DNA of 64,000 bases from Diacronema lutheri (lineage: Eukaryota > Haptophyta > Pavlovophyceae > Pavlovales > Pavlovaceae), in the NCBI GenBank assembly GCA_019448385.1, contig JAGTXO010000001.1, positions 434,001-498,000 on the forward strand. The letters run 5' to 3'. The notes below the pieces were generated by a model. It made no database searches and was not told the DNA's origin. It saw only the letters and a list, made by a program, of their open reading frames with translations. How positions within the stretch are numbered: position 1 is the first letter of the stretch; every line of letters starts with the position of its first letter. The position numbers were made by a program, and so were the translations under genes. This document shows, one piece after another, positions 19,177 through 34,700 of this stretch.

Positions 19177-21436
19177 TCAGCGTGGCTCCGACTGTGCTGA
19201 GCCCCGCTTGCCGCAGCTGCTCGGCGTCGTCGTCGACAATTGGCCGCCGCTCGCGCCGCCACCTGCGCCACCGCCGTCGGCGTCACCGCCACCGTCGCGC
19301 TCATGCTCGCGCTCGAGCTCCCGGTGCACGCCGCGGGCCGCGCTCGCCGCGTGTTCCGGTGCCGGATCGTTTGGCGTGATGAGTTCGGACACATGTACGA
19401 GTTCGCGCCAAAACGTGGTGAGCGTCAAATGGCCATAATGGGCGTGGCGCTGTGCCTTGTGCCGCGCCTTCTCGGGTGGAGCAACTGCGTACGTGCCGTG
19501 CGTGCGCGTCTGCTGCGCAAGGTCGCTCAGCTTGAGCCTGACCTCGCCGAGCGCGTCGTGGCGCGTGAGCTGGTCGTGGTCCCAGAGCGAGATGAACAAG
19601 CTGTCGACCTCCAGGTCTCGAACGACGAAGCGGAAGCGCTCGTCCCACCGCGGCGAGGTCGTCTTGCGCACCACCTTGGAGCGCACGGGCGCGCAGTCGC
19701 CGACGCTCAACTCGGCGTACGGGTCGGACGTGCCGCCAAAATCGTCGGCGACCAGCTCGCTAGCCCCGCGCAGCCGGACGGTGAGGACGCCGATCGCCGG
19801 ACTGGGCGTGCGGCCGGCGCGCAGCGAGCGGCGGGACACGCGGTAGTCGGGCGCCTCATCGTTCGACGCGTCTGCCGCGCCCTCGCCCGACGAGCGCCGC
19901 TCGAGCTTGGGCGGCGGCTCCTGCGAACCCCGCGCGCCTGCCGGCGGCGGGAAGGGCCGCCATTGTGCGCGCAGCTGCAGCCGCATGCCCGGAGCACCGC
20001 CGACCAGCGGGAGCGATTTGTCGAGCGAGGCGTTTGGTGCGGACGCCACTTGCGCGAGGTCGAGCACGCAGCTCCCTGATGGCGCGCGCGCGCGCGCGCG
20101 CGTGCGCAGACGGGCGCGGTCGGCGCGCGCCCGTGCGCGCGCGGGCGCGCGGAGCGCGGCGGTCGGCGCGCACCAAGGAGGAGATCCGAAAGCTGGTCGT
20201 CGAAGATGCGAACGTTGAGCTGCTCGCCCTCCTGCGGCGCGTGGTCGACGATCAGCTCGGTGAGCACGTCGAGCTCGCCGCACTTGCGCCGCATGACGGT
20301 AGGGTAACGAATTGGCTCGGTGGAAGAGAGCGAGGTTGTGGCGTAGGGCCAGATGGGCATAACGCACGCGAGGAGCCGCATCGCGAAGCGGCCGGGGTGC
20401 GAGACGACGGCAGCGGCGGGCGTGTCCGCGGGCGGCCGCTTCAGCCCGCTCACGCGCTGCAGCTCCACCTCCAGAACGCCGGCCATCGCCATCACGACGG
20501 GCAGGTCGGGATCTGTGCCGTAGTCGCCGTCAAGGATGCGCATTTGCTGGAAGTTGGGCCAGGTGAAATGCGACGCGAGCGTCTGCGAGATGAGCGTGAG
20601 GAGCGCGTCGGATACGCCCGGCATCGCCATCACGTCGAAGGCGCTCGCGACGACCGTGAGGCGGCAGTCGACGCGCGGCTTGCGCACGAACCCAACCGAC
20701 AGCCCGGCAAAGCATGGCCAGACCGTGCAGAGCGGAGTGAAGATGACGCGAAGCGTGCCGACCACCTGCAGCTCGGCGAGTGCGACGGGCACGCACGCGA
20801 ACGAAGCGGCGCCCACCTCGAGCTGCACGTCCGGCTGCCCGGCCATTCGCACGTCGAAGTCGAGCACAATCTCCGAGCCGGCGCCGCGCGTGTGGCACCG
20901 CACGCCGCTCACGTTGAGCGGCGTCGAGCCGAGCGAGAAGCGGGTGAAGCGCGCCCAGCGGATGGGCGTACCGTGCGTGTGCGAGGCGAGGATTGGGTTG
21001 AGCAGCTTCTTCATCGTATCTTCCGTCGCGACGAGCAAGAACGGCCAGTACTTGACGATGAACGCGTTCATCCAGTCGGCGCGCTGTGCGTGCGGCCGGC
21101 GCGCGGCCCGGCGCGCGGTCGGCGCGCGGCCGGGCGCGTGGCCGGGCGCGTGGCTGGGCGCGCGGTCTACGCGCGCAAAACGCTGGGCGCGCGCACCTCC
21201 GTGTCCGGGAACGTCACCCACTCGGGCAGCATATCGAGGAGCTCCTTTCTCATCGTGCGCCCGGTGCGTGTGCGCTCGATCAGGAGGGCGTTGGACGAGC
21301 GCTCGAGCACCCGCCGCGCGATGCCGGTGACCAGCCACACGAGACCAGCGAGAAGCAGCATCGTGAGGCCCGGCTCTGGCTTGGCGACGCCGATCGCATA
21401 CGCCGCCGCCACCGTCGCGCACACACTCACGAGCAT
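19177..21436 (-). CDS. extended synaptotagmin-like SMP/C2 lipid-transfer protein
   Basis: Three exons: 21436-21197, 21083-20174 and 20075-19177, 682 residues. Donors are GTGCGC, acceptors CAG. Residues 1-43 are a hydrophobic hairpin (AAAYAIGVAKPEPGLTMLLL). The SMP domain begins near residue 80 (DWMNAFIVKYWPFLL) and contains FTRFSLGSTPLNVSGVRCH, as in E-Syts and plant SYT1. A degenerate first C2 spans the second junction (RIFDDQLSDLLLGSCVLDL). A typical second C2 follows: VRLRGASELVADDFGGTSDP, SPRWDERFRF and SLWDHDQLTRHDALGE, with most Ca2+-binding aspartates present. Such proteins tether ER to plasma membrane and move lipids. The C-terminus is Gly/Glu-rich. Starts with the mosaic protein gene are 73 bp apart. 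Confidence 0.9.
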
Positions 21437-21509
21437 TTCCCACACTGCTCCGTCCGCCCGCCTTTTGAAAAGAGGCGTTCGCGCGCCGCGATTTGCAAAC
21501 GACGGGCGA

Positions 21510-22729
21510 ATGGTGAGGCTCACGGTGTGTGCGGTGCTGCTGGCGTGGAGAGCAGCCCTCACGCTCGGCTTTGGCAACGTGGGCGACGTGGCGGACTGCG
21601 GGTGTCCGATCCACGAGCCAGCCGCGCACGTCGTTGACCCGGGCTGGGGCACGCACGCGTGCGCGCGCTCGCACCGGTGGATGACGGCGGTATGCGCGCC
21701 CACGCCCGCCGCCGGCGAAAGGCTCGTGGGCGCGCGGCAGCGCGCGGCGCTGCTCGCGGCGGGCGCCGACGCGGCGGTGCACCCGTCGGCCCTTGGCGCG
21801 CGCATGCGCCCGCGTTACGAGCTGCAGCCCCTCCGCCGGCTGCTGCTGCTCGCCGACGACGCGCGCGCGTCGCGCCGGCTACAGGCGCGCACAGACGAGC
21901 CCGCCGTCGTCGCGCTGCACGAGTTCACGCCGAGCGGCGGGCTGGACGGGTGGGTGGTGAGAACGGGACGCGGCCTCCACGCATGGGAGCACTCGTCCGA
22001 GCCCGGCGCCGACGGCCGTCCGGGTGTCATCCGCTTTGCGTGCTCAGAGGCTGGCGCCCAAGCGATCGTCACGTCGCCCGCCGTGCGCGCCGGCCGCGTG
22101 CTTTTCGCGCTGCGCGAGCTGCCCGCGCCGGGGCAGCCTACGCCGGGGACGGTCATGTTCACGGCTCACGTCGACGGCGTCGCGCGCTTCAGGAGCCTCT
22201 GGGAGCGAACAGGCCGCGTGCCGGGCAGCTGGGAGGAGGAGGCGCTCGAGCTGCAGCCAGCGCAGGACTGCGCGAGCCCCAAGGCGGCGCAGCTGCGCGT
22301 CAGCGTCACGTGCGCGGGCGCGGGCGGCGAGGTGGCCCTTGACCGCGTCGAGTTTGTGCGCGAGTGTGGGCCGCTCGTGCCGCGCACGCCGCCCGCCAGG
22401 GACGCCGCGCGCGCCGCCTCGCCTAGCCCGCCGCCGAGCCCGCCGCCGCCATCGCCTAGCCCGCCGCCGAGCCCGCCGCCGCCGTCGCCTAGCCCGCCGC
22501 CGAGCCCGTCGCCGCGCGTGGCCGCCGTGGCGGCCGGGCCGTCGTGCCGCGGGCTGTGCGAGCAGAACACGCAGTTGCTCGGCTGCTTTTGCGACAGGAC
22601 GTGCGTGCACTCGCACGACTGCTGCGGTGACTATCTTGACGAATGCGCTCCGGGTGCGCGCCGTCCCCCCGAGGGCGCTGCACCTGCCGCCGTCGCGGCT
22701 GTCGCGTCGCCGTCGGCCTCGCCGTCGGC

Positions 22730-22766
<37 letters not shown>

Positions 22767-25740
22767 CGTCCGCCGCCGAGTCCGCCGCCGCCGCCGTCGC
22801 CCAGCCCACCGCCGAGCCCGCCGCCGCCGCCGTCGCCCAGCCCGCCGCCGAGCCCACCGCCGCCGCGCGGCCACCTCGCGCACGCGCGGCGCGGCTTTGC
22901 GCCGCTTTCGCCACTCCCCCCGCCGCCCAGCCCGTCGCCGCCGCCGCAGCCGGCAACGCCGCCGCCGCCGCTGCCGCCGTCGTCGCCGCCGCCGAGCCCG
23001 TGGCCCTCCTTGCCGCCGCCACCGCGCCCGCCGCCGCCGCCGCGCCCGCCGCCGCCACCACCGCCCGACCCGTCGCTGCCGCCGCGCGCGCCGCCACCTG
23101 CGCGCCCGCCGCGCCCACCGCCGCCGAGCCCGCCGCCGAGCCCGCCGCCGCCGTCGCCGAGCCCGCCGCCGCCGTCGCCCAGCCCGCCGCCAAGCCCGCC
23201 GCCGCCCGCGAGCCCGCCGCAGCCGCCATCGCCGCCGCCGTCCGCCACGTATCTCGAGGGCTGGGATCCGGCGCGCCCGCGCGCTTTCGAGGCACTCGCC
23301 GTCGCAGTCGGCTTTAACTTCACGTGCGCGCTTGACGGTTACGGGCGAGTGCGTTGCTTTGGCGACCAGCGGCGCGGCCAGACGGGCGCTGGCGAGGCCG
23401 TCGACTTTGCGCCGCTCGACGAGCGGCCGCTGCGGCTGGGCACGGTGCGTGTCGGCGGCGGCGGCGGCGGAGGCGGCGGCGGCGGCGGCGTGCGCAACGG
23501 CGCGGCGGCGGCGCTGGGGTTGCTGCGCGTGCCGCTTCGCGTGCGTGCCATTTCGGCAGGCCACTCGCACGCATGCGCCATCAGTTGCGACGGGCAGCTC
23601 AAATGCTGGGGCGCCAACGCGCGCGGCGAGCTCGGGCAAGGCGACGTGCTCTCGCGAGGCCGCGATCCGGCCGAGATGGGTGACGCTTTGCCTGCGGTGC
23701 AGCTCGGCGTCGCGGCGGCACCGTACAACTTTTGGGCGCGACCGCAGGCGCTGCTTGTCTCCGCAGGCGGCGGCGCCTGCTCGCCGCTTGGCCGCGCTCC
23801 TGTCCCACTTGGCAGGACGTGCGCGGTTGATTCGAACAGCTTGCTCTACTGCTGGGGTGACAACTCGTGCAACGCGCTGCCAAACGCGCCCGCCGCGCCG
23901 GCGTGCGCGGCGTGGGAGGCCGGGCGCGCCGAGCGCCGGCGCGGCGCCTCCGTCGAGAAGGCGGCGATTGGCGGCGGCGCGCGCACGCCCGCGCCGGCGC
24001 CGGCGAGCACGCCCAACGCGGACGGCGCGCTGTTCGCTCCCGCCGAGGCGCACGTGGCGCAGACGGCGCGGATGAACGCGGCGGGCGTGAGCGCGCGCGA
24101 CGGCGCGCAGGGCCCGACCTTCGTCTACGCCAATCCGGGCCGCCAGCCTTTCCCCGTCGCGCAGGCCTTCATGCAGCGCCACGCGGTCCGGCTGCACAAC
24201 CGGCGGCAGTGCGACGCGCAGACCCTCGAGGCGTTGCAGGCCGCGCTCCAAGTGTTGCTGCCGCTGCTCACGCTTGCGCCGATGCGCGAGGCGGGTGGGA
24301 CGGGCGCGCAGGGCGCGAGCGCGGCGAACCCATGCGGCTGGGAGCTGCGCAGCGACCTCGCCCCCGGCTGGCGTGAGGAGTTCCGCGACGGCGTCGAGCT
24401 CGGCATGACGGTCGTGGGCGCGTCGCCCATCCGCTTCTCGCCGCCGCCGCCGCCGCCGCTCTCGCCGCCGCCGCCGCCGCCCGCCTTCTACGCGTCGCCG
24501 CCGCCGCGCCCGCCGCCGCGCTCGCGCCAGGCCGCCGCGCCACCCGCCGCCGCGCCGCGCCGCGCGCCCGCCGCCGCCGCGCCGCCGCGCGCCGCGCCGC
24601 GCGCGCCGCTCGGCGCGCGCGAGGCGCTGACCGCGGGTCTTTCGCGCGAGTCGTGCGCGGCGCTGGGTGACGAGGCGGGGGAGATGGGCGAGGCGTTGCC
24701 GCACGTGCAGCTCGACGCGGCGAGCCCGCTCGTGTACGCCGTGTCGCTCGGCCTCACGTTTGGCTGCGCGCTCTCCGCCGCGATGCCGTCCGGCCGGCCG
24801 GCGCCGTCAGAACACTGGTCGGCCGAGGAGAACGTGGCCTTTGGCGGCGGGCGCGTCAAGTGCTGGGGCGACAACTCGCACGGGCAACTCGGGCAGGGGA
24901 GCCACGCGCCGCTTCGCGCATCGCTCGCAGCGACGCCGTGGATCGCGCTGCCCGGCCGCGGCGCCGTGCAGGTGTCGGCGGGCGGCTCGCACGCGTGCGC
25001 GGCCGTCCTCGCGTCCGACCTGCCGCTCGCGCAGGCGCCGCCGCAGATCGTCTGCTGGGGGTCGAACGGCGGCGGCGAGCTGTTGCGCGACCAGACGGGC
25101 GACGACCGGCGGTATATTGGCGACGACGCCGGCGAGATGCCCGCCGCGCTCGTGCCCGCGCCCGTGCGCGCGCGCCCCCTCCGCTCGAGGTTTGCGTGGG
25201 CTGCCGCGTCAGGGTCGTCGCTCGACGAGGGGCTCTCCGCGCCCTACGTGATCGCGGGCAGCGCGGTGCGCCAGCCGGGCACGGAGGTGGCCGGCCGCAC
25301 GTGCGCGATGACCGACGTCGCCGACGCCGGCGCCGAGGGCGCGCTGTGCGCCGGCGTCGACGCGTCCGTCCTCCGTGGCGCGCGTGTGTGGGCGTACGGG
25401 GTCAATGTGCGAAACGTGAGCGCTGAAGGTGGCGAGCACCGCTGCCTCGCCGCCGCGGCGCGCAGCGCGGCGGGCGAGCCGCCGCGCCTCGCGCTTCTCC
25501 CGTGCTCCGCGCGCGACGCCTCGCAACTCTTCGCCTACGACTGGCGCGCGCGCACATACGTGTGGGCGGCTGACCCCGCGTGGTGCCTTGGCCTCGGTGA
25601 TGGCGGCACAGATGCGCGCGCGGGCGCAGCGGCGGACGCGGCGCGCGGCGCGCTCGTGTTCGAGCGGTGCGAGACGGCGGACGCGCTCGACGGCCGCGCG
25701 GGCGAGACGGCGCCGTTCTGCGCGCTGCGCGCGGGCGGCA

Positions 25741-25782
<42 letters not shown>

Positions 25783-28482
25783 GGAACGTGGTCGGATGCG
25801 TCGAGGCGCTCGAGGGCGAGTACGAGTGCGAGGAGGTCGCGTGCTTGTGGCCCTACGCCGGCTGCTACGCGCGGCCCAACCCGCCCGCGCCGTCCGCGCC
25901 GCCGCAGCCGCCCGCGGCGCCTCCGGCTTCCGCTGCCGCCGTCGCGCCGCGTGCCGGGGCGCAGCCTGCCGTGCGCGCGCGCGCGAGCGCCGGCGGTGGC
26001 ACGGACGGCGCGGTGGCTGACGGCAGCGCGCGCGCACCGCAGCGGGCGCTGCCGCGGCCGCCACCGCCGCCGGCGCCGTCGGCGCCGCCGCCGGCGCGTG
26101 CGATGCGGGCCGGCGGCGCCGACGGCAGCGGCGGCAGCGGCGGCAGCGGCGGCGGCGGCGGCAGCGGCGGCAGCGGCGGCAGCGGCGGCGGCGGCAGCTT
26201 TTCTGCAGGCGCGGGCGCCGCCGCGCCGGCCGAGCCGTGCGTTGGGCTCGCGGCGGCGCCGCACTGCAATTTGCGCCAGTTCCGCGCGGCGCTGCGCACG
26301 CGACTGGGCACGCACCTGCCGCGTGAGTGCAACTGCGGCGGCGCGCTCGACGAGTGCCGCGGCGCGCAGCTCGACGCGCGCTACCGCTCGGCCGCGTGCG
26401 CCGCGCGGCTGCGCGCGCACCCTCTGCTCAGGTGGGAGTGCACGGCGCACGCGCTTATGCCGGTGCTGCGGTATACACCGGGCGAATGCCTCGCGCAGTG
26501 GCACCCCTTCGGCGAGCTCGACAGCATCGACGCCGAGGCCATTTGCGCGTCGCAGGGGTACGGCGCGCCGCTGCTCGCGCCGCAGCCGTGCTCGGAGGAC
26601 GGGCGCGACTGCTGCGTCGAGTTTGTCGAGTGCTCGGTCGGGCCGTCCTTCTTTGGCGGCAACCACCCGGTGAAGACGAGCCGGTGCGACCCTCGGGAGG
26701 AGCGGCAATGCTGGTATCGCAATTCGCTGCAGCAACAGGGCGCGTTCGGCAATGGTGGATATCACGATGGCGGGCAGCACTACTCGGCTTTCTATGAGGC
26801 GCACAAGAAGGCGCGCGGCTGGGCGCCCGGAGGGCAGTGCCTCTCCACGCCCGAGGGCCTCCGCTCGGACGGGCCAGCCGGCGCGCGCGCGCGCGCCTCG
26901 TGGGGCGCGGAGAAGGCCGCGCTCAACAACGCGGCGGCGGGCGCGGGCGCGGGCGGCGCGGCGTTTGGCGGTGCGCCCGTGCTGCGCGGCGCCGTCTCCT
27001 TCCGCGGCGCGCAGCTCGGCACGACGATCAACGGCGCGCGCGTCGGCTCGTTCGGCGACCTCGTCATCGCGAATCTGCCCGCGCGCGCGGGCGGCGGGCG
27101 AGAGCTCATGGCTTCGAGTCCGGATGCGCTCCTGTGGTACATGGACGTGGGCAGCGTGGCGTGCGCGGCTCGCGCCGACGGCTCGATGCGGCTCTCGCTG
27201 AGCGTGGCGTGGGAGTCGAGCTTCGCGTCCGCCGAGTTGTCGATTGGCGTTGCTGACGGCACGCAGCTGATTGGCGTGTTGCACGGTGCAGGCAGCAAGG
27301 CGCAGCTGTACGAGGGCGGCTGGCGCACGGCGCAGTTCTCGCGCGTGGGCATCTGCTGCGCAAAGGAGATTGGCGCGCAGCTGCCCGCGCGCAGCTTGAC
27401 CGTGACCTTCGAGTGGCCAAGTACAGGCGCGCAGGGCGAGGCGAGCGTAACAAACAACTATGGCGGCAGTGCGCAGATGTTTCGTCACCTCCCTGCCCTC
27501 AACCCGGCCGCGCCGCTCACGGTGTGGATCGCGGGCGCGGCCGCCAACGAGCTGGTCACGGTGAACGCCGTTACGCTCTCGGGCGATTGCACGGACCTCG
27601 CCAGCCTCGCCGTCGCACCTGACCCGCCGCGCGCGCCGCCCGCCGCGCCACCGTCGCGCGAGCCGCCGCGCGAGCCGCCGTCGCGTGCACCGCCGTTGCC
27701 ACCGCCGCCGCCGCGCCCACCCGCCGCGCCGCGCGCGCCACCGCGCCCGCCGCCGGCGCCGCCTCCGCCGCCGCCGCTCTCGCCGCCGCCGCCGCCGCCG
27801 CCCCTCGCGCCGCCGCTGCCGCCGCCGCTGCCGCTCGCGCCGCTCTCGCCGCCACCCGGCGCGCTGGGCACGTGGCGAGGCGACGACGGCCTTCTGCCGA
27901 TGGCGCGCTACTCGACGTGGGAGTGCAACGGCAAGCGCACGCAGCAGTGGGGCCAGGAGGCGTTCCTGCCGCCCTCCATAAGCTTCTGGAAGGCACGCGC
28001 CCATTTTCAATCGCCGCGCGCGCGCGTCCTCGTGCGCGCCCTCGCCGCCGTCCGCCTCTCGCGCGCCGCCGCCCCGCCCGGCTCATCAGCGCACGGCCGC
28101 CGCCGCCGCCGCCGCCGCCGCGGCGCCGCGCCACGCCGCCCGCCCGCCCGCGCCTCCCCAAAATGTGTCCTCCGCGCAGTCGCTGGCGGAGTCGTGCGAT
28201 GCGCCCGACGGCCTCTGCCGCATGCTGCTGCCCTTGGCCAAGGATCCGCTGCTCGAGGTCGGCCGCTCGTACTGCGCGCGCCTCACCGCCTTCATCGACG
28301 GCTGGGAGCTCGAGAGCGGCAGGCGCACCGACCGCTGCCCCGCCGGGCTGAGGTCGTGCGCGGGGCGGCGCGCGCAGCCGACGCTCGCCGCGCGGTACGT
28401 GGACGCGTGTGGCGACTCTGATGACTTCAACCGCTCCGCAATGCCCGGTGCGCGCGCGCGTACCGCCGCGGCGCGACCGCCG

Positions 28483-28513
<31 letters not shown>

Positions 28514-29891
28514 GGCCACGCTGCGCGTCGCGTTCGATGCCTCCGCCCCCCCCCCCCCCCCCCTCCCACCTGCGCGCGCAGAGCCGAGGCGCGTGTTCGG
28601 CCATGGGTGCCGCGACGTGCCGCGCAATTGGGTGGCGCTCCTTGACGGGCAATACGAGTGGAAGATGCGCTGCTCGCACTATTCGTCGCAGGTGCGCCCG
28701 CGCCGTAGAGCGCGGCAGGGAAGGGGTGTCCGGAGCGATGTCCGGAGCGGTGTCCGGGTGGCGGGAAGGCGCTGCGCCATTTCTCACCCCACGTGCCGCG
28801 GGCGCGACCGCGCGTGTTGTGCGCAGGTGTGCATCCTGCCGCACCGCACGGTCTACCCGCCGCCTCCGCGGTCCGTGCCGCCGCCGCCTCCGCCGTCGCC
28901 GACGCCCCACTCGCCGCCGGCCTACCCGCCGCCTTCGATGCCGCCGCCGCCGCCGCCGCCGTCCCTGCCCGTGCCTGCCGGCCTGCCGCTCGCGCCGCCG
29001 CTCGCGCCGCCCTCGCCGTTGCCGCCCGACGCGCGCATGCCCTACTTCAAGCGCCTCTGCCGGCCGGGTGCGCCGCGCAGCTCGTGCGCTCGTCCCGAAT
29101 GTTCCGTTACGCTGCCCTGCCGCCTTCGATACACCGACCCAGCCGCGCAGCCGACGGGCGCGCGCGCGCCGGCCGGCCTGGGCTGCGTCGTGTACGCGCG
29201 CGACGGCGAGGGCGCCGCCGCGACGCACGCGCTGATCGCGCAGCCGTGCGACCAAGTGGGCGCGGACGAATTTGCAAACCGCGGGCAGGAGGCGTCCGCC
29301 CAATGGGGCGCGTGGGCGCTTGACGCAGGCCGCTTCAGGCCAGTCGACCCGGCGACGGGCGCGTTCGTGCCCGGCACGCTGTGCCTCGACGCGCCCGCGC
29401 CGTTCGCGCTCGCGCCATGCGGATCCGCGCCCGCTTTTCAAAGCGTCGCGCCTTATTCTGCCGCGCGGCGTGTACGCTGCTTTGCGACGGGCGGCGGCCT
29501 GGACGTTGCACACCACGGCGTGTGCATCGCGCAGGCGGACGAGAGGCAGGCGGCCAAGCTCGTGCCGCTCAGCGTGCACGCGCAGCACTGGCGCGTGTCC
29601 TCCGCACCCGCCCGCGCCGCGCAGTCCCGCGCCGAGCAGCGCGCCGAGGCCCGTCGCGCGCCAGCCGTCGAGCGCGCGCGCGCGCTCGACGGCGCGGCGC
29701 GACTCGTCGCGCTCGCGGCCGTGGTTGCCGTGGGCGGCGCTGTCGCACTCGCCGCGCGCGTGGCCGCGCGGAGACACGCACAGCCGCTATACGTGCAGCC
29801 CATGGTTGCCCGCCGCGGCAGTGCGCCCACCGCTGCGGACGACCGGCCGCAGCAGAGCGCGCGCGCGCGGAAGGCACAGCGCCTCTTGTGA
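21510..29891 (+). CDS. giant mosaic surface protein: SMB, RCC1-like repeats, ricin-B-like, Pro-rich spacers
   Basis: Four exons: 21510-27992, 28180-28447, 28582-28691 and 28827-29891, about 2641 residues. It has a signal peptide (residues 1-20). A somatomedin-B-like Cys knot (CRGLCEQN...CFCDRTCVHSHDCCGDY) lies at about 346-377 and a PPPSP spacer at about 380-580. RCC1/BLIP-II-like blades follow (HACAISCDGQLKCWGANARG; VKCWGDNSHGQLGQG) to about 1224. A ricin-B-like segment (residues about 1293-1400), an acidic DGDDGDD run, two Cys-rich modules, a beta-rich module and more Pro spacers come next. A near-C-terminal transmembrane helix (LVALAAVVAVGGAVALAARVA, about 2579-2600) precedes a basic tail. 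The architecture implies a type I extracellular matrix or recognition protein. Intron 1 has a GC donor (AAG|GCACGC); intron 3 is 135 bp and open in frame. Confidence 0.75.
22420..23250 (+). repeat. proline-codon low-complexity tracts
   Basis: CCGCCG(AG/TC)CC repeats encode SPPPSPPPPSP-type spacers around the SMB-like domain of the mosaic protein. Similar tracts recur at about 24440-24510, 27610-27860 and 28855-29030. They are coding, but slippage-prone and hard to assemble. Confidence 0.9.
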
Positions 29892-29934: not shown

Positions 29935-30631
29935 TTAGCCAGGCCCCGCCGCCATGCCTGCCGCCTCCGCGGGCACGATGAGGCTCGGCGTGCCGGCGGG
30001 CGGTGGCGGGTCAGACGATGCCCCGTTGCCGCCATGGCTGCGCGCAGCGCTCGGAGGCTGGGCACGCCAGCCCGCCGAGCCGATCATGTGCTCCCGTTGA
30101 GCCGCGCGCGCGCGCTCCGCCGCCCCGTCGGGCGTGAGGCGCACGACCGCGTTGGCCGAGGCGCGCGCGCCGGTGGCACCATGGGCGCCATGGTCGCCCG
30201 GCGGCGGCGTCGGGCAACGCGGGTGAAGGGCAAGCTTCCACACCAAAGAGTAGCGCGCGCGCTCGGCACCGGCGGCAGCATGCGGCGCCGTCACCGCGTG
30301 CGTCACATCCTGGTCGAGCAGGACCAGCCGGCCCGGACTCGGCTGCACCCACGCCTCGGCGCCCGTTGGCGGGTCGACAAAGCGCGTCGGTGCGCCCCAT
30401 GTGCCCTCCCACACGGAGTTGATATAGACAAGCGCAGAGACGAGGCGCGGCTTGGCGGGCGAGCGGTTGGGGTACATGCCGTGCAGGTCCGTCCACGGCG
30501 ACGGCTCAGCCGCGTTCGGGTCCGCATCGCAGTGCCACTGGAAGACCTCGCCTGCCTGCGGAGCGTTCGCAACGATCGGCGTCGAGCCGCGCGTCGAGCC
30601 GTCGAGCTCGACACAGCCATCATCATCATCA

Positions 30632-30665
<34 letters not shown>

Positions 30666-31686
30666 CGTCGTCGTCATCGGCCAATTCGTCGTCAGCGGGC
30701 GAGGCGACGGGCAGCGCGGCAAAGGGCGGCGGCGCAAAGCACACCTCGCAATCCGGCAGCAGCGCGCGCAACCGCCCTTCAAACTCGACGACCGCGGCCG
30801 GCCGATTGTGCGAGGTGGGCTCGGCGGTGCGCGAGCGCGCGCGCTGCGCCTCGGCGAGCGGATCGATGGCGGGCGGACAGAGCGCGCGCACCACCTCGGG
30901 ACGCAGCGTCCAGCTCGGCCGCAGGCTGTCCGGATCGTCGTTCCGGTCGACGAGTTGTCGCGTCCAGAGCGCGGGGTCGGGGCCCTCGTCCTCGCCGCGC
31001 CCAGCTTGCTCCGGCCGGACGAGTGCGAGGAGCGCCGCGCGCAGCGGTTCGTCGACGACGTGATCCCACACGGCGACTTCGGACACGTCCCACGCGGGGT
31101 CTGCGGCGGGGTCGGAAGGCGCATTGGACGGCGCGCGCGCCGTACCCACGTCGGTCGCGCCGCGCGGCGCGCAATCCAGAAGCACGCGCGCAGCAAGCAC
31201 GGCGCGCTCAGGCGTCCAGCCGCCGGCGTGCGCGCCGCCGGCTGGCGCCTCCAGCGTGCGGCGTAGGCCCCACGTCCGCTCATGCGTTGCGATCAGCGCC
31301 TCGACGTGCGCGCAGCTCATGCCGCGCTCGCGCCCGGCGTTGCGCGCGCCGGCGTCCGCGTCCGCGGGCTGCTCGCCAGGCGCTGCGACCAGCAGCAGCG
31401 GCTCGCCGCGCAGCTCGTCAAGCAGCTCCGCCGTGCACTGCGCGTCGATCGGGCTGCAGCCGCACAGCTCGGCGAGGCGCACGCCCTCATACTCGCGCGG
31501 CGCTCGCAGCGGCTGAACGAGCCACGGCTCGCCCGTCACCTCCTCCAGCGCCTCGGACAGCGCGCCGCGTTCGGCGGGCGAGACATTGAGCGTGCGCGCG
31601 ACCCGCGCGTGCGACAGCTGCCCGAGCGCCAAGCTGGCGGGCGCGCGCAGAGCGAGGAGCACGAGCAGCGGGGCTCGCTTCCGCAT
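29935..31686 (-). CDS. 2-oxoglutarate-Fe(II) oxygenase (prolyl-4-hydroxylase-like), secretory
   Basis: A 583-residue ORF; ATG at 31686 starts a signal peptide (MRKRAPLLVLLALRAPASLALG). The C-terminal double-stranded beta-helix shows the Fe ligands: HxD in QWHCDAD (His about 385), the distal His in DQDVTHAVTAP (about 462), and the 2OG-binding Arg in RYSLVWKL. The region between (LVSALVYINSVWEGTWGAPT) is the usual core strand pair. These enzymes hydroxylate proline or other residues. Next to hydroxyproline-type surface proteins, a wall-protein substrate is attractive but inferred. A run of about 16 Asp encoded by a GTC/ATC triplet repeat (30618-30676 on the plus strand) interrupts the domain upstream of HxD. 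Confidence 0.82.
30618..30676. repeat. trinucleotide repeat encoding poly-Asp
   Basis: ATC/GTC triplets repeat about 19 times and translate on the minus strand as an almost pure Asp run in the oxygenase. The length is likely to vary between strains. Confidence 0.9.
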
Positions 31687-31797
31687 GCCGACGCGCCCGC
31701 CGCTGCACGACACCGTGACCTCGACCGTCCTTGACCGTGACTGCGTCGCTGGACTGGCTGTCTGAGCCCGCGGGCCACGGTCAGAATTCACAGTCAG

Positions 31798-34700
31798 CTA
31801 ATCGGCCGCTCCCGTCAACGGATCGCCATCGGTGAGCTCGGCCGCTGGCGCCGACGCGACTGTGCTACCCACTTCGAGCGGTTCGAGCGGTTCAAGCCGC
31901 TCGAGCGGCTCGAGCGGCTCGAGCGGCGGCGGCGGCGGCGGCGGTGGCGGCGCGAGCGGTTGGTCGGCCAGCTCGGCATCCGCGGCGACGGGCACCGCCT
32001 CAAAAGCCGAGTCGTGTGCCGGCAGCGGCGGCGGGTGAAACGGCGTGCGCTCCGTGGGCGCGGGCTCGGCTCTCAGCGCCTTGCCAATGAGCTTGCGCTT
32101 GAGCACCGCCACGTTTGTGGCCGACGCCAGCTCGTGCGCCTTCTCTTTGGGCTCGACGACGGGCAGGTCGAGGCCGGCGATCGCGCCCTGCACGAGCGCC
32201 ATCAGCTCGTCGAGCGACGCGCTCTGTCCCGACGGCAGCACGAGCTGCGTTTGTCGGGCCGTGCTCATCTGCCGCCACCGATCGAGTGCGCTGCACACCT
32301 GCTCCGTGCTGATGCCCGCAAGGCTGCCCACGTGGTCCTCGCCGCGATAGAGGCTGATCAGCCGCCCGAGGAACGCCTGCGCGCGGGATGCGCGCGCGCG
32401 CGCACGCGCAGCGTCGGCGGCGCGGCGGCGCGGCGGCGCGGCGGCGCGGCGGCGCGGCGGCGCGGCGGCACTGCGCTGGCGCAGCGCGCGCGCGGACCTG
32501 GCTGACGGGCCGCGCCTCGAGGTCGAGCGCGGCGCGCAGCCGAGCGTGCGAGAGGAGGAGCATGCAGAACGAGAGCCCCGCACCGAGCGCGGAGAAGGTG
32601 CACACCCACGCGATCCGCTTGTCCGCCTGCCATCCCAAGGACAGGCCAGCAATGCACAGCGTGATGCCGGTGACGAGGCCCAGGAAGGCCCGCTGGCGCA
32701 ACCGGCGCATCCGGCGGACGAGGGGCAGCGGCCCGCGCATGTAGAGCTGCTCGAGCTGCTTGAGGAAGAAGTGGTCGAGCCGCCATTGCTCCACCTGCTC
32801 GTCGGGGAGCAAATCGATGGGCTCGATGACGCGGTTCGAGATCGGGTCGACAGCGGGCAGGCCGCTCATGTGCAGCGCGCAACCCTCGCGAATCTGCCTG
32901 CGGATCTCGTCGGAGCGCAGCGGGAAGCGCAGCTTGAGCACGCTCGAGAGCACCGAGCACGCGAACGGCAGGCCGAAGAAGACGATCCGGATAAAGGTCG
33001 TCACGATCGGCGCCTGCGGCTGCGGTACGCCATGCTTGTCCGGCGGCACGAAGCCGAGCACGACGAGCAGCGTGAGGGGGACGGTCGCGGCGGGCACGCT
33101 GACGAGCTTGGGCAGCAGGCTCTGCCCGATCGTGAACCGCCCCTCCGAGCGCACGCCCGTGAGGAACTCATCGTAGTCAATCACGTCGGCGACGATCGAG
33201 TCGGTCAAAAACTGCGCGCCGAGGGGCAGGCCGTTGATGAAGACGCAGAAGACACACAGCACCGGGTCGCCCTCGTCGACGGCGACGAACATGATCGACG
33301 TGACGGCGTTGACCACGTTGAAGAGCAGCCACACACTCCGCTTCTCCATCCGGCGCGTCAGGTAGAGCCAAAAGGGCTGCGAGAGCATGGCGCCGCAGAT
33401 GAGCACCACGATGGACAGGCCGATCCACCCGGACGTGCCGCACCAAAAGTCCGTGCGGCAGCCGGGCAGCAGCGTCGACTTGGTCGACCGACCACGCTCG
33501 TCCTTGTCCGGCTGCGCCGCGTACCACGCGGCGCCCGCCTCGTCGAGCGTGCACTCCGCAGCGCACTCAGTCGTCATGTGCGGCATCACCACGTACCTGT
33601 CACGCGCAGCGCGGCGCAGCGCCGGTCAACACGCGCGCGGCGCGATCGCGCGCGGCGCGCGCGCGCTCGGCGCGCGCGTGGCGGCCGGTGTCGCGCGCGC
33701 GGCGCACGTGTAGAAGAAGGTGATCATCGTCGTGACGAGCGTGATTGCGAGCTGGTCGAGGACCCACGTCGGCAGCAGCGTCATGAAGGGCGAATTGCGG
33801 CGCGTCGCCATGAGGGACGGCACGAGCGGCGGCGTGAGCGTCGAGACGGACGCGGGCCGCTCCTTGAGCATCCGGCACGCAAAGAGGATCGCCAGCACGT
33901 ACCACAGCCCGAGGAAGACGGCCGTGTACTGCAAGCCGAGACCCTGCGCGACGAGCTCGCACGGCGGCCAGCTGAGCGACGCCAGCTGCGCGGGCGTGTG
34001 GCAGCCGCGCTCGGCGCTCAGCTTGTACTCGATGGCGACAGGCATCATCGCGGCGATCAGGATGCCAAACATCTTGAACAGCCCGGCGAGGAAGAAGAGC
34101 GAGTTGCGCGCGCCCTGCTCGTCCGTCAACTCGGGGCCGAGCGCCGAGTGCGGCACGTTCGAGCCCGTGTCGGTCAGGTAGAAGAGCGTGTAGAAGACGC
34201 CAAACCAGCTCACCAGCCCGCCGGCGCGCGCAGCCTCGTCCGACACACTGGCGAACACCTGCGAGCCCGACATGAGCGCGATCAGGCAGAGCGCGTAGAG
34301 GGGCGAGAACATGAGCATGTACAGGCGCCGCCGTCCATAGCGCGAGCGCGTCGAGTCGCTCAGCCAGCCCATCAGCGGATCTGTCAGCACGTCGAGCGAT
34401 CGGGCGAGGGCGATCAAGAACGAGAGCGTCGAGATGTCCGCGCCGAACGCGTTGAAGAAGGCGATCGCGTGCACGTTGAGCAGCATCGTGACGGACAGCT
34501 TGGACATTTCGGGCATCGCGTACGCGAGCTTCGTGTACCAGCGCAGCTTGACGGGTTGCAGAGCCGACGGGTCCATGCGCGTGGCAGAGCTCCTCGACGT
34601 AGGCACCTCGACCGGCTTCGCCTTCTCGAGGTTGGGGTAGGTCTCGTCGCGCGCTTGCACCGCCTGGTAGACAGCAAGCGTGCTCGTCACCTGCTCCGTC

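Follow-up and report, generated by a model that had tools for sequence, protein, structure and literature searches.

A predicted membrane-anchored mosaic protein with a cysteine-paired RCC1 propeller, and its two paralogues, in the haptophyte Diacronema lutheri

The haptophyte Diacronema lutheri (Pavlovophyceae) encodes, within a stretch of 64,000 nucleotides of contig JAGTXO010000001.1 (assembly GCA_019448385.1, positions 434,001 to 498,000; hereafter the window), a mosaic protein of 2641 residues. With moderate confidence we interpret it as a type I single-pass surface membrane glycoprotein, a member of a three-gene family, that would act as an adhesin or tether between the plasma membrane and the scale or glycan coat. 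The predicted chain comprises a signal peptide, a lumenal or extracellular part of ~2560 residues, one transmembrane helix and a short basic tail ending in Leu-Leu. Across the family, a shared core is combined with differing N-terminal heads that have Ser-Pro-Pro-rich stalks; location, binding partner and function are what we infer from the sequence. The first-pass annotation, a reading of the letters of the window, had proposed a surface or matrix role for a secretory-route mosaic, and in this it agrees with our reading. It was incomplete in that the gene is no orphan but one of three paralogues.

Gene model and the three-gene family

The four-exon model occupies positions 21510-29891 of the window on the + strand (455510-463891 of the source contig, abbreviated C9) and joins 21510-27992, 28180-28447, 28582-28691 and 28827-29891 into 2641 residues; the coordinates and length first proposed for a single spliced gene are exact. 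Two further splice sets found in the narrow ranges scanned also keep the frame open (2637 and 2641 aa), the sole difference being a few residues at intron 2. The paralogues are named here after their contigs, C53 and C19.

27891..27992 (+), Cys-rich module, second half, at the end of exon 1; C53 alignment
27993..28179 (+), intron 1 (GC-AG); splice model, C53 alignment, GC donor in matching context in C19
28180..28447 (+), exon 2, Cys-rich module; splice model, C53 alignment
28448..28581 (+), intron 2 (GT-AG); splice model, C53 alignment; two alternative sites possible
28582..28691 (+), exon 3, Cys-rich module; splice model, C53 alignment
28692..28826 (+), intron 3 (GT-AG); splice model, C53 alignment; position shared with a C19 intron
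28827..29891 (+), exon 4: end of the Cys-rich module, Pro-rich spacer to ~29027, C-terminal Cys domain, transmembrane helix and tail

The strongest evidence for this structure comes from the paralogues. The splice junctions fall at protein positions 2161/2162, inside codon 2251 and at 2287/2288, and the second half of a Cys-rich module spans all three introns; it aligns with two copies of the module in C53 (36% over 171 columns, 32% over 217 columns), where the frame is open, and none of the three joins is interrupted by a gap. Continuity at 27992/28180, on which the first-pass annotation had staked its single gene, is upheld by homology in the same way, the junction being gapless against the open C53 frame. 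In C19, an intron predicted by homology lies at the place of intron 3, and its GC donor (AAG/GCACGCG) resembles the donor of intron 1 here. GC-AG introns with like donor context are thus seen in two paralogues (at 27993 here and after ...CNEFTSK in C19), and GC donors may be frequent in the D. lutheri genome.

An open frame alone is little proof, because this GC-rich genome (~65-83% GC across the window in 2-kb steps) yields long frames on both strands, with 44 open reading frames (150 aa or longer) overlapping a 14-kb part of the window. Codon usage was trained on the C53 frame and scored in 52 segments of 50 residues: the coding frame is the best of the three forward frames in 51 of these (the miss, residues 2551-2600, is the transmembrane region) and the best of all six frames in 46, and its score is slightly below zero in 5. 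The test is modest and single segments decide little, because the three introns score between -0.48 and 0.16 in their best frames. On two strong tests (the C53 junctions and the C19 intron) and this modest one, we take the gene to be real and continuous.

Four separate parts of the protein, used as queries against the genome (43,492,796 bases, 103 contigs), led to the same two other genes. The N-terminal module has three matches, namely itself, C19 (72%) and C53 (55%); the first half of the Cys-rich module has two copies in C53 (47%, 48%) and matches C19 across a pair of exons (54%, 45%); the C-terminal domain matches C19 at 32%, across a stop that is intronic by homology, and C53 at 46% over 39 aa. 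The propeller and lectin-like query matches C53 at 42% over nearly its whole length and C19 in three pieces; the other 14 of its 19 matches cover blades only, at much poorer E values (2.3e-6 to 0.0086). In C53 a single frame, open from the start of the gene, covers the propeller and both Cys-rich modules and extends into the C-terminal domain, with further exons after it; C19 is interrupted by many introns. All three genes have the N-terminal module, the RCC1 propeller, a ricin-B-like segment, the Cys-rich module and, at the C-terminus, a domain with a membrane helix; all but the first make up the shared core. The heads differ: a somatomedin-B (SMB) domain and a weak MAM-like segment here, a weak C2-like match in C53 (15 bits, E 0.029) and a MAM domain in C19 (28.7 bits, 1.3e-6, in an exon piece against a cut-off of 26.4; 25.4 bits in a genome profile search), where the N-terminal piece gave no C2 match.

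Outside this genome, the metagenome protein P0001 is 90% identical to the second Cys-rich copy of C53 and reaches the C-terminus with a transmembrane helix and an -LL end, and a second metagenome protein, P0002, is 67% identical to the propeller-lectin region of C53 and runs into the Cys-rich module. By sequence, the family is so far known from this genome and these two fragments. A protein search with residues 1150-2060 found none among 7978 candidates (0.55-1.75 of 2161 aa), a weak search in which the query words were partly of low complexity; a profile of the Cys-rich module gave one match among 4393 candidates (lengths roughly 209-665 aa). Because of their length limits, these searches would have missed orthologues of full length in other haptophytes, and 'pavlovophyte-specific' is used below as a hypothesis. 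No publication describing the family was among the open-licence papers listed; many algal matches to 'RCC1' are strain designations from the Roscoff Culture Collection.

Modules from head to tail

The modules assigned along the chain, apart from the intron-bearing part given above, are as follows.

21510..21569 (+), signal peptide, ~residues 1-20; hydrophobic N-terminus, comparable leader in both paralogues
21567..21710 (+), N-terminal Cys-containing module, residues 20-67; genome matches to itself, C19 and C53
21912..22376 (+), weak MAM-like segment, residues 135-289; sub-threshold match to Pfam MAM (E 0.2), short BLAST matches to MAM pieces of C19
22404..22532 (+), Pro-rich spacer 1, residues 299-341
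22542..22649 (+), SMB domain, residues 345-380, 8 Cys; profile and vitronectin alignment
22719..23258 (+), Pro-rich spacer 2, residues 404-583, 109 of 180 Pro
23277..23885 (+), RCC1 blades 1-3, residues 590-792, Cys pairs 606/616, 689/699, 771/781
23907..24629 (+), propeller insert of ~240 residues with a Pro-rich stretch (969-1007), absent from C53; alignment, codon usage
24657..25154 (+), RCC1 blades 4-5, residues 1050-1215, Cys pairs 1086/1118, 1163/1182
25377..25865 (+), ricin-B-like segment and adjoining Cys, residues 1290-1452; sub-threshold profile
25866..26237 (+), Pro/Gly/Ser-rich linker, residues 1453-1576
26238..26879 (+), unnamed Cys-rich module, first half, residues 1577-1790; 44% to C53 copy 2; matches in 3 genes, 4 copies
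26892..27617 (+), unassigned insert within the Cys-rich module, residues 1795-2036; absent from C53, no Pfam match
27618..27869 (+), Pro-rich spacer, residues 2037-2120
29037..29555 (+), C-terminal Cys domain, residues 2358-2530; genome matches to itself, C19 and C53
29706..29762 (+), transmembrane helix, residues 2581-2599; mean hydropathy 2.21, like-placed helix in C53, C19 and P0001
29763..29888 (+), basic cytosolic tail, 42 aa, 9 R/K against 2 D/E, ending -LL

The membrane anchor is common to the family. A 19-residue hydrophobic stretch near the C-terminus is present in all four members compared (this protein, C53, C19 and P0001; mean hydropathy 2.21-2.47), as is a tail of 18-42 residues in which R/K exceed D/E. 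All four tails end in Leu-Leu, for which chance would account in ~0.6% of random tails (Leu makes up 7.7% of this protein), with C53 and P0001 being close relatives whose ends are not independent. Another hydrophobic stretch, at 1074 (score 1.77), lies inside a blade. The N-terminal signal, single C-terminal transmembrane segment and basic flank indicate a type I membrane protein by hydropathy and homology. A C-terminal helix had been noticed in the first pass and is indeed present, but had gone unrecognised as the transmembrane segment 2581-2599 that forms the membrane anchor.

The head combines small extracellular-type domains with proline-rich stalks. SMB (PF01033) scored 22.1 bits in the exon-1 scan, just under the cut-off of 23.1, and 29.9 bits in a genome profile search, above it and as the sole match in the genome; the pattern of eight Cys aligns to vitronectin (E 0.00052). 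The MAM-like segment reaches 11.9 bits against a cut-off of 26.4 for PF00629, and BLAST matches to the C19 MAM pieces have E values of 0.002 and 0.015 in a database of only five short pieces. At a threshold of 10 Pro per 20 residues the protein contains seven Pro-rich stretches, with 25 SPP-type repeats in total, as in the SP(n) repeats of hydroxyproline-rich glycoproteins, and there are 85 Cys residues overall. The signal peptide (by sequence), the SMB-like knot, the Pro-rich spacers and the RCC1 blades of the first-pass annotation all proved real.

For the propeller, RCC1_2 (PF13540) scores 67 bits against a cut-off of 22 and RCC1 (PF00415) 23.9 against 21.7; the blade matches (1e-18) occupy four stretches of exon 1. 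Five blades are recognisable, each with a Cys pair, and linkers of the EMGD type occur near residues 722, 1058 and 1204; RCC1 propellers in general are closed and usually have seven blades. A homologue search gave 2492 matches among 7988 scored candidates, and Cys were counted by regular expression in the best 120: of 1467 blades, 1403 have both Cys, 55 have neither and 9 have one only (5 + 4). A cruder pattern, in which the first Cys was wrongly anchored, had counted 992, 325 (second Cys only) and 35. The two Cys are thus kept or lost together in 1458 of the 1467 blades, and this coupled loss fits the prediction of a disulphide; as the homologues were gathered with a Cys-bearing query, the share of pairs is biased, the coupling less so. 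The blade motif H-x-C-A-L...V-K-C-W-G and the linker RG(D)..EMGDxLP.V.LG are common to this protein and its bacterial and algal matches, and N-termini that look signal-like by eye are found in three of six inspected homologues, all three bacterial.

The D. lutheri genome holds at least 124 RCC1_2 matches. Among eight other RCC1 loci (L001, L002, L005-L008, L029 and L030), a pattern script found Cys-paired blades in three (L002, L006, L029), each near a signal-like start by eye; in L030 inspection by eye shows Cys pairs overlooked by the script. Blades in L001 and L005 lack the pair, so both blade types occur in this species, and no blade was found in L007 and L008 in the frames tried. The generalisation made in the first pass, that RCC1-type propellers are normally intracellular, is ill-suited to this Cys-paired subclass in view of the signal-like starts among homologues and loci and of an RCC1 coccolith candidate considered below. 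Judged from sequence, the RCC1 part belongs to a secreted-type, Cys-paired subclass, and an extracellular RCC1 propeller is less odd than first supposed.

L029 (C69:848764-850326) has a PPPSP-type spacer together with Cys-paired blades and is apparently a smaller cousin in plan. The loci C75:1017076, C94:56081 and C95:35294 have identical scores over many repeats and represent a recent triplication or residual duplicate contigs; the C75 copy has Cys-paired blades, EMGD linkers and a start that looks signal-like. A locus on C30, considered as a further large RCC1 gene, was dropped, the part inspected by eye having neither head, stalk nor Cys-rich module of this family.

For the ricin-B-like lectin segment named in the first pass, the match is weak here and better in C53, and under the cut-off of 29 in both (PF00652; 13.6 bits, E 0.076 for the piece from this protein; 24.2 bits, E 4.1e-5 in C53). 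A scan of the whole of exon 1 lists no ricin-B at E<=1, and the C19 piece tried has no match; a genome profile search with PF00652 gave no match, but its control matched nothing either. P0002 is annotated with PF00652. The Cys-rich and C-terminal domains have no Pfam family above cut-off in the pieces scanned, where exons 2 and 3 were covered through their equivalents in C53 and P0001, and the closest match, KRTDAP in C53 (E 0.087), is at chance level. Exons 1 and 4 have no NCBIfam match, and no relative of the Cys-rich module was found in the viral contigs, prokaryote genomes and phages searched.

Neighbouring genes

Three neighbouring genes lie on the opposite strand.

19710-21782 (-), SMP-domain gene (SMP_LBD, 2.6e-20), lipid-transfer type; upstream, head-to-head with the gene
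29938-31791 (-), 2OG-Fe(II) oxygenase (PF13640, 2e-6); downstream, convergent, 43 bases away
32003-33592 (-), MFS_2 sugar-transporter-like gene (3.7e-23)

A frame at 19177-20367 (-), overlapping the SMP gene, reads C2-like by eye, and the oxygenase has a signal-like stretch near its start, also by eye. The adjoining oxygenase could hydroxylate prolines, which is suggestive but may be chance. Elsewhere, lists compared by eye place other RCC1 matches near PF13640 on C89, at 1.3 kb, and on C34, at ~10 kb; on C89 the positions are 514271-514585 (-) and 515889-515981 (+). The oxygenase was dropped as a marker of a gene cluster, PF13640 having 41 matches genome-wide, and is kept as a lead only. For want of a conserved neighbourhood, the earlier suggestion of an undescribed system component finds no support.

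Possible roles and known systems

In algal proteins that are secreted, hydroxylation and glycosylation commonly turn Ser-Pro-Pro rods into stiff polyproline rods, and C-terminal hydrophobic residues can act as ER-export signals (ER, endoplasmic reticulum). SMB and MAM are extracellular protein-binding folds, and pavlovophytes bear organic scales. The chain would pass through the ER and Golgi, where the stalk prolines would be hydroxylated and glycosylated to form stiff rods; by analogy with the export signals, the terminal Leu-Leu may aid exit from the ER. The stalks would hold the heads (SMB/MAM-like in this protein, C2-like in C53 and MAM in C19) at a distance from the membrane. There the heads would bind a protein or glycan, either in the organic scale coat or on another cell; additional binding faces would come from the propeller and the lectin-like segment, and the tail would serve as an anchor, not for signalling. 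Hydroxylation and glycosylation of extensin-type rods are cited in the available text of PMC10290126. A more specific version, which we put forward tentatively, is a pavlovophyte-specific recognition family in which a conserved anchored core, made up of a Cys-paired RCC1 propeller, a lectin-like segment and a Cys-rich fold unmatched in Pfam, presents interchangeable SMB/MAM-like, C2-like and MAM heads on extensin-type rods, linking the plasma membrane to the organic coat or to partner cells.

Several results weigh against the surface tether. The ricin-B match lies below its cut-off and has QLF where C53 has QLW, ricin-B lectins being marked by three beta-trefoil repeats with QxW, and the MAM-like match is insignificant by Pfam. 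Another frame outscores the coding frame in 6 of the 52 segments of the six-frame codon comparison. AlphaFold2 models are of very low confidence, with a mean predicted local distance difference test score of 29 for the propeller-lectin region (3 rows) and of 43 for the Cys-rich module (C53 copy 2, 8 rows), so that closure of the propeller and the lectin fold are unproven. Finally, the coccolith proteins discussed next may serve as precedents only, being likened by description; the passage on the RCC1 candidate in PMC11685980 also considers cellular contamination, and the name of this candidate, EhG32342.1, is absent from the main text of PMC10290126.

As a possible but rather doubtful alternative, the protein could be a scaffold of the scale or flagellar coat, made on a membrane anchor and then built in, with Pro-rich rods and Cys-rich modules cross-linking. 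Its stalks resemble extensin-type wall proteins, and its many Cys residues suit such a role. The available text of PMC10290126 describes an extensin-like coccolith candidate with Ser-(Pro)3-4 repeats, EhG42278.1, with a proposed role in base-plate assembly, and a MAM protein, EhG33272.1; that of PMC11685980 reports an extensin-like protein in G. oceanica and cites EhG32342.1, a coccolith candidate of an earlier study with an RCC1-domain match. This RCC1 precedent helps the tether and the scaffold alike. The transmembrane anchor and tail in four of four members are more apt for a tether, and the literature search found no pavlovophyte scale proteome.

A mating or cell-cell agglutinin appears unlikely. 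Green-algal sexual agglutinins carry a head on a hydroxyproline-rich rod, and the head-on-rod plan and the small family with divergent heads would be comparable; the likeness is one of plan, and we know of no sexual cycle described for Diacronema. A signalling receptor for glycans, bacteria or prey, to which the type I topology, the propeller and lectin-like parts and the basic tail could point, is a poor candidate: the tails are too short for an enzyme domain and, by eye, have no obvious similarity beyond -LL and basic residues. That the model is an artefact, separate genes or non-coding GC-rich read-through, is highly improbable despite the frequent long frames on both strands and the codon segments lost, as the module order recurs in C19 and also in C53, where an open frame covers the propeller, both Cys-rich modules and the beginning of the C-terminal domain; the junctions, moreover, are gapless against C53.

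To our knowledge, little is known of the proteins that attach the coat to the cell in scaly haptophytes. The protein and its paralogues form a family of three genes with clear modules in a compact, contiguous genome, and thus offer concrete targets for tagging and knock-out; they add a Cys-rich module undescribed by Pfam and make it look less odd in itself that a secreted chain should contain an RCC1 propeller.

Among known systems, Cys-paired RCC1_2 proteins of Bdellovibrio, Sorangium and the green alga Pseudoscourfieldia are like this protein in blade motif and EMGD linker. Five of the six inspected are mainly blade arrays without its plan of head, stalk and Cys-rich modules, and the sixth is P0002, a member of the family; one of the five, P0092, is named EGF-like. 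The propellers of UVR8, RCC1 and HERC2, which are cytosolic or nuclear, show distant blade homology (the best PDB match is UVR8, 1.2e-9); unlike in this protein, the blade Cys pair is absent from UVR8 in the two alignments inspected. Vitronectin SMB shares the eight aligned Cys, here in one small domain of a very different chain. Paramecium Nd6p has an intracellular role, unlike that proposed here; it is a protist protein with RCC1-like domains that is tied to exocytosis in a passage of PMC9815656 and in the title of a reference in PMC9159632. Three of the kinds of module in this family have thus each been reported in haptophyte scale material, where the coccolith candidates, likened by description and not by sequence, have MAM, extensin-like and RCC1 parts in separate proteins; in D. 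lutheri they are joined in one family. This is an unusual family of large membrane-anchored mosaics, and it falls within the known category of modular surface adhesion proteins rather than into a new one.

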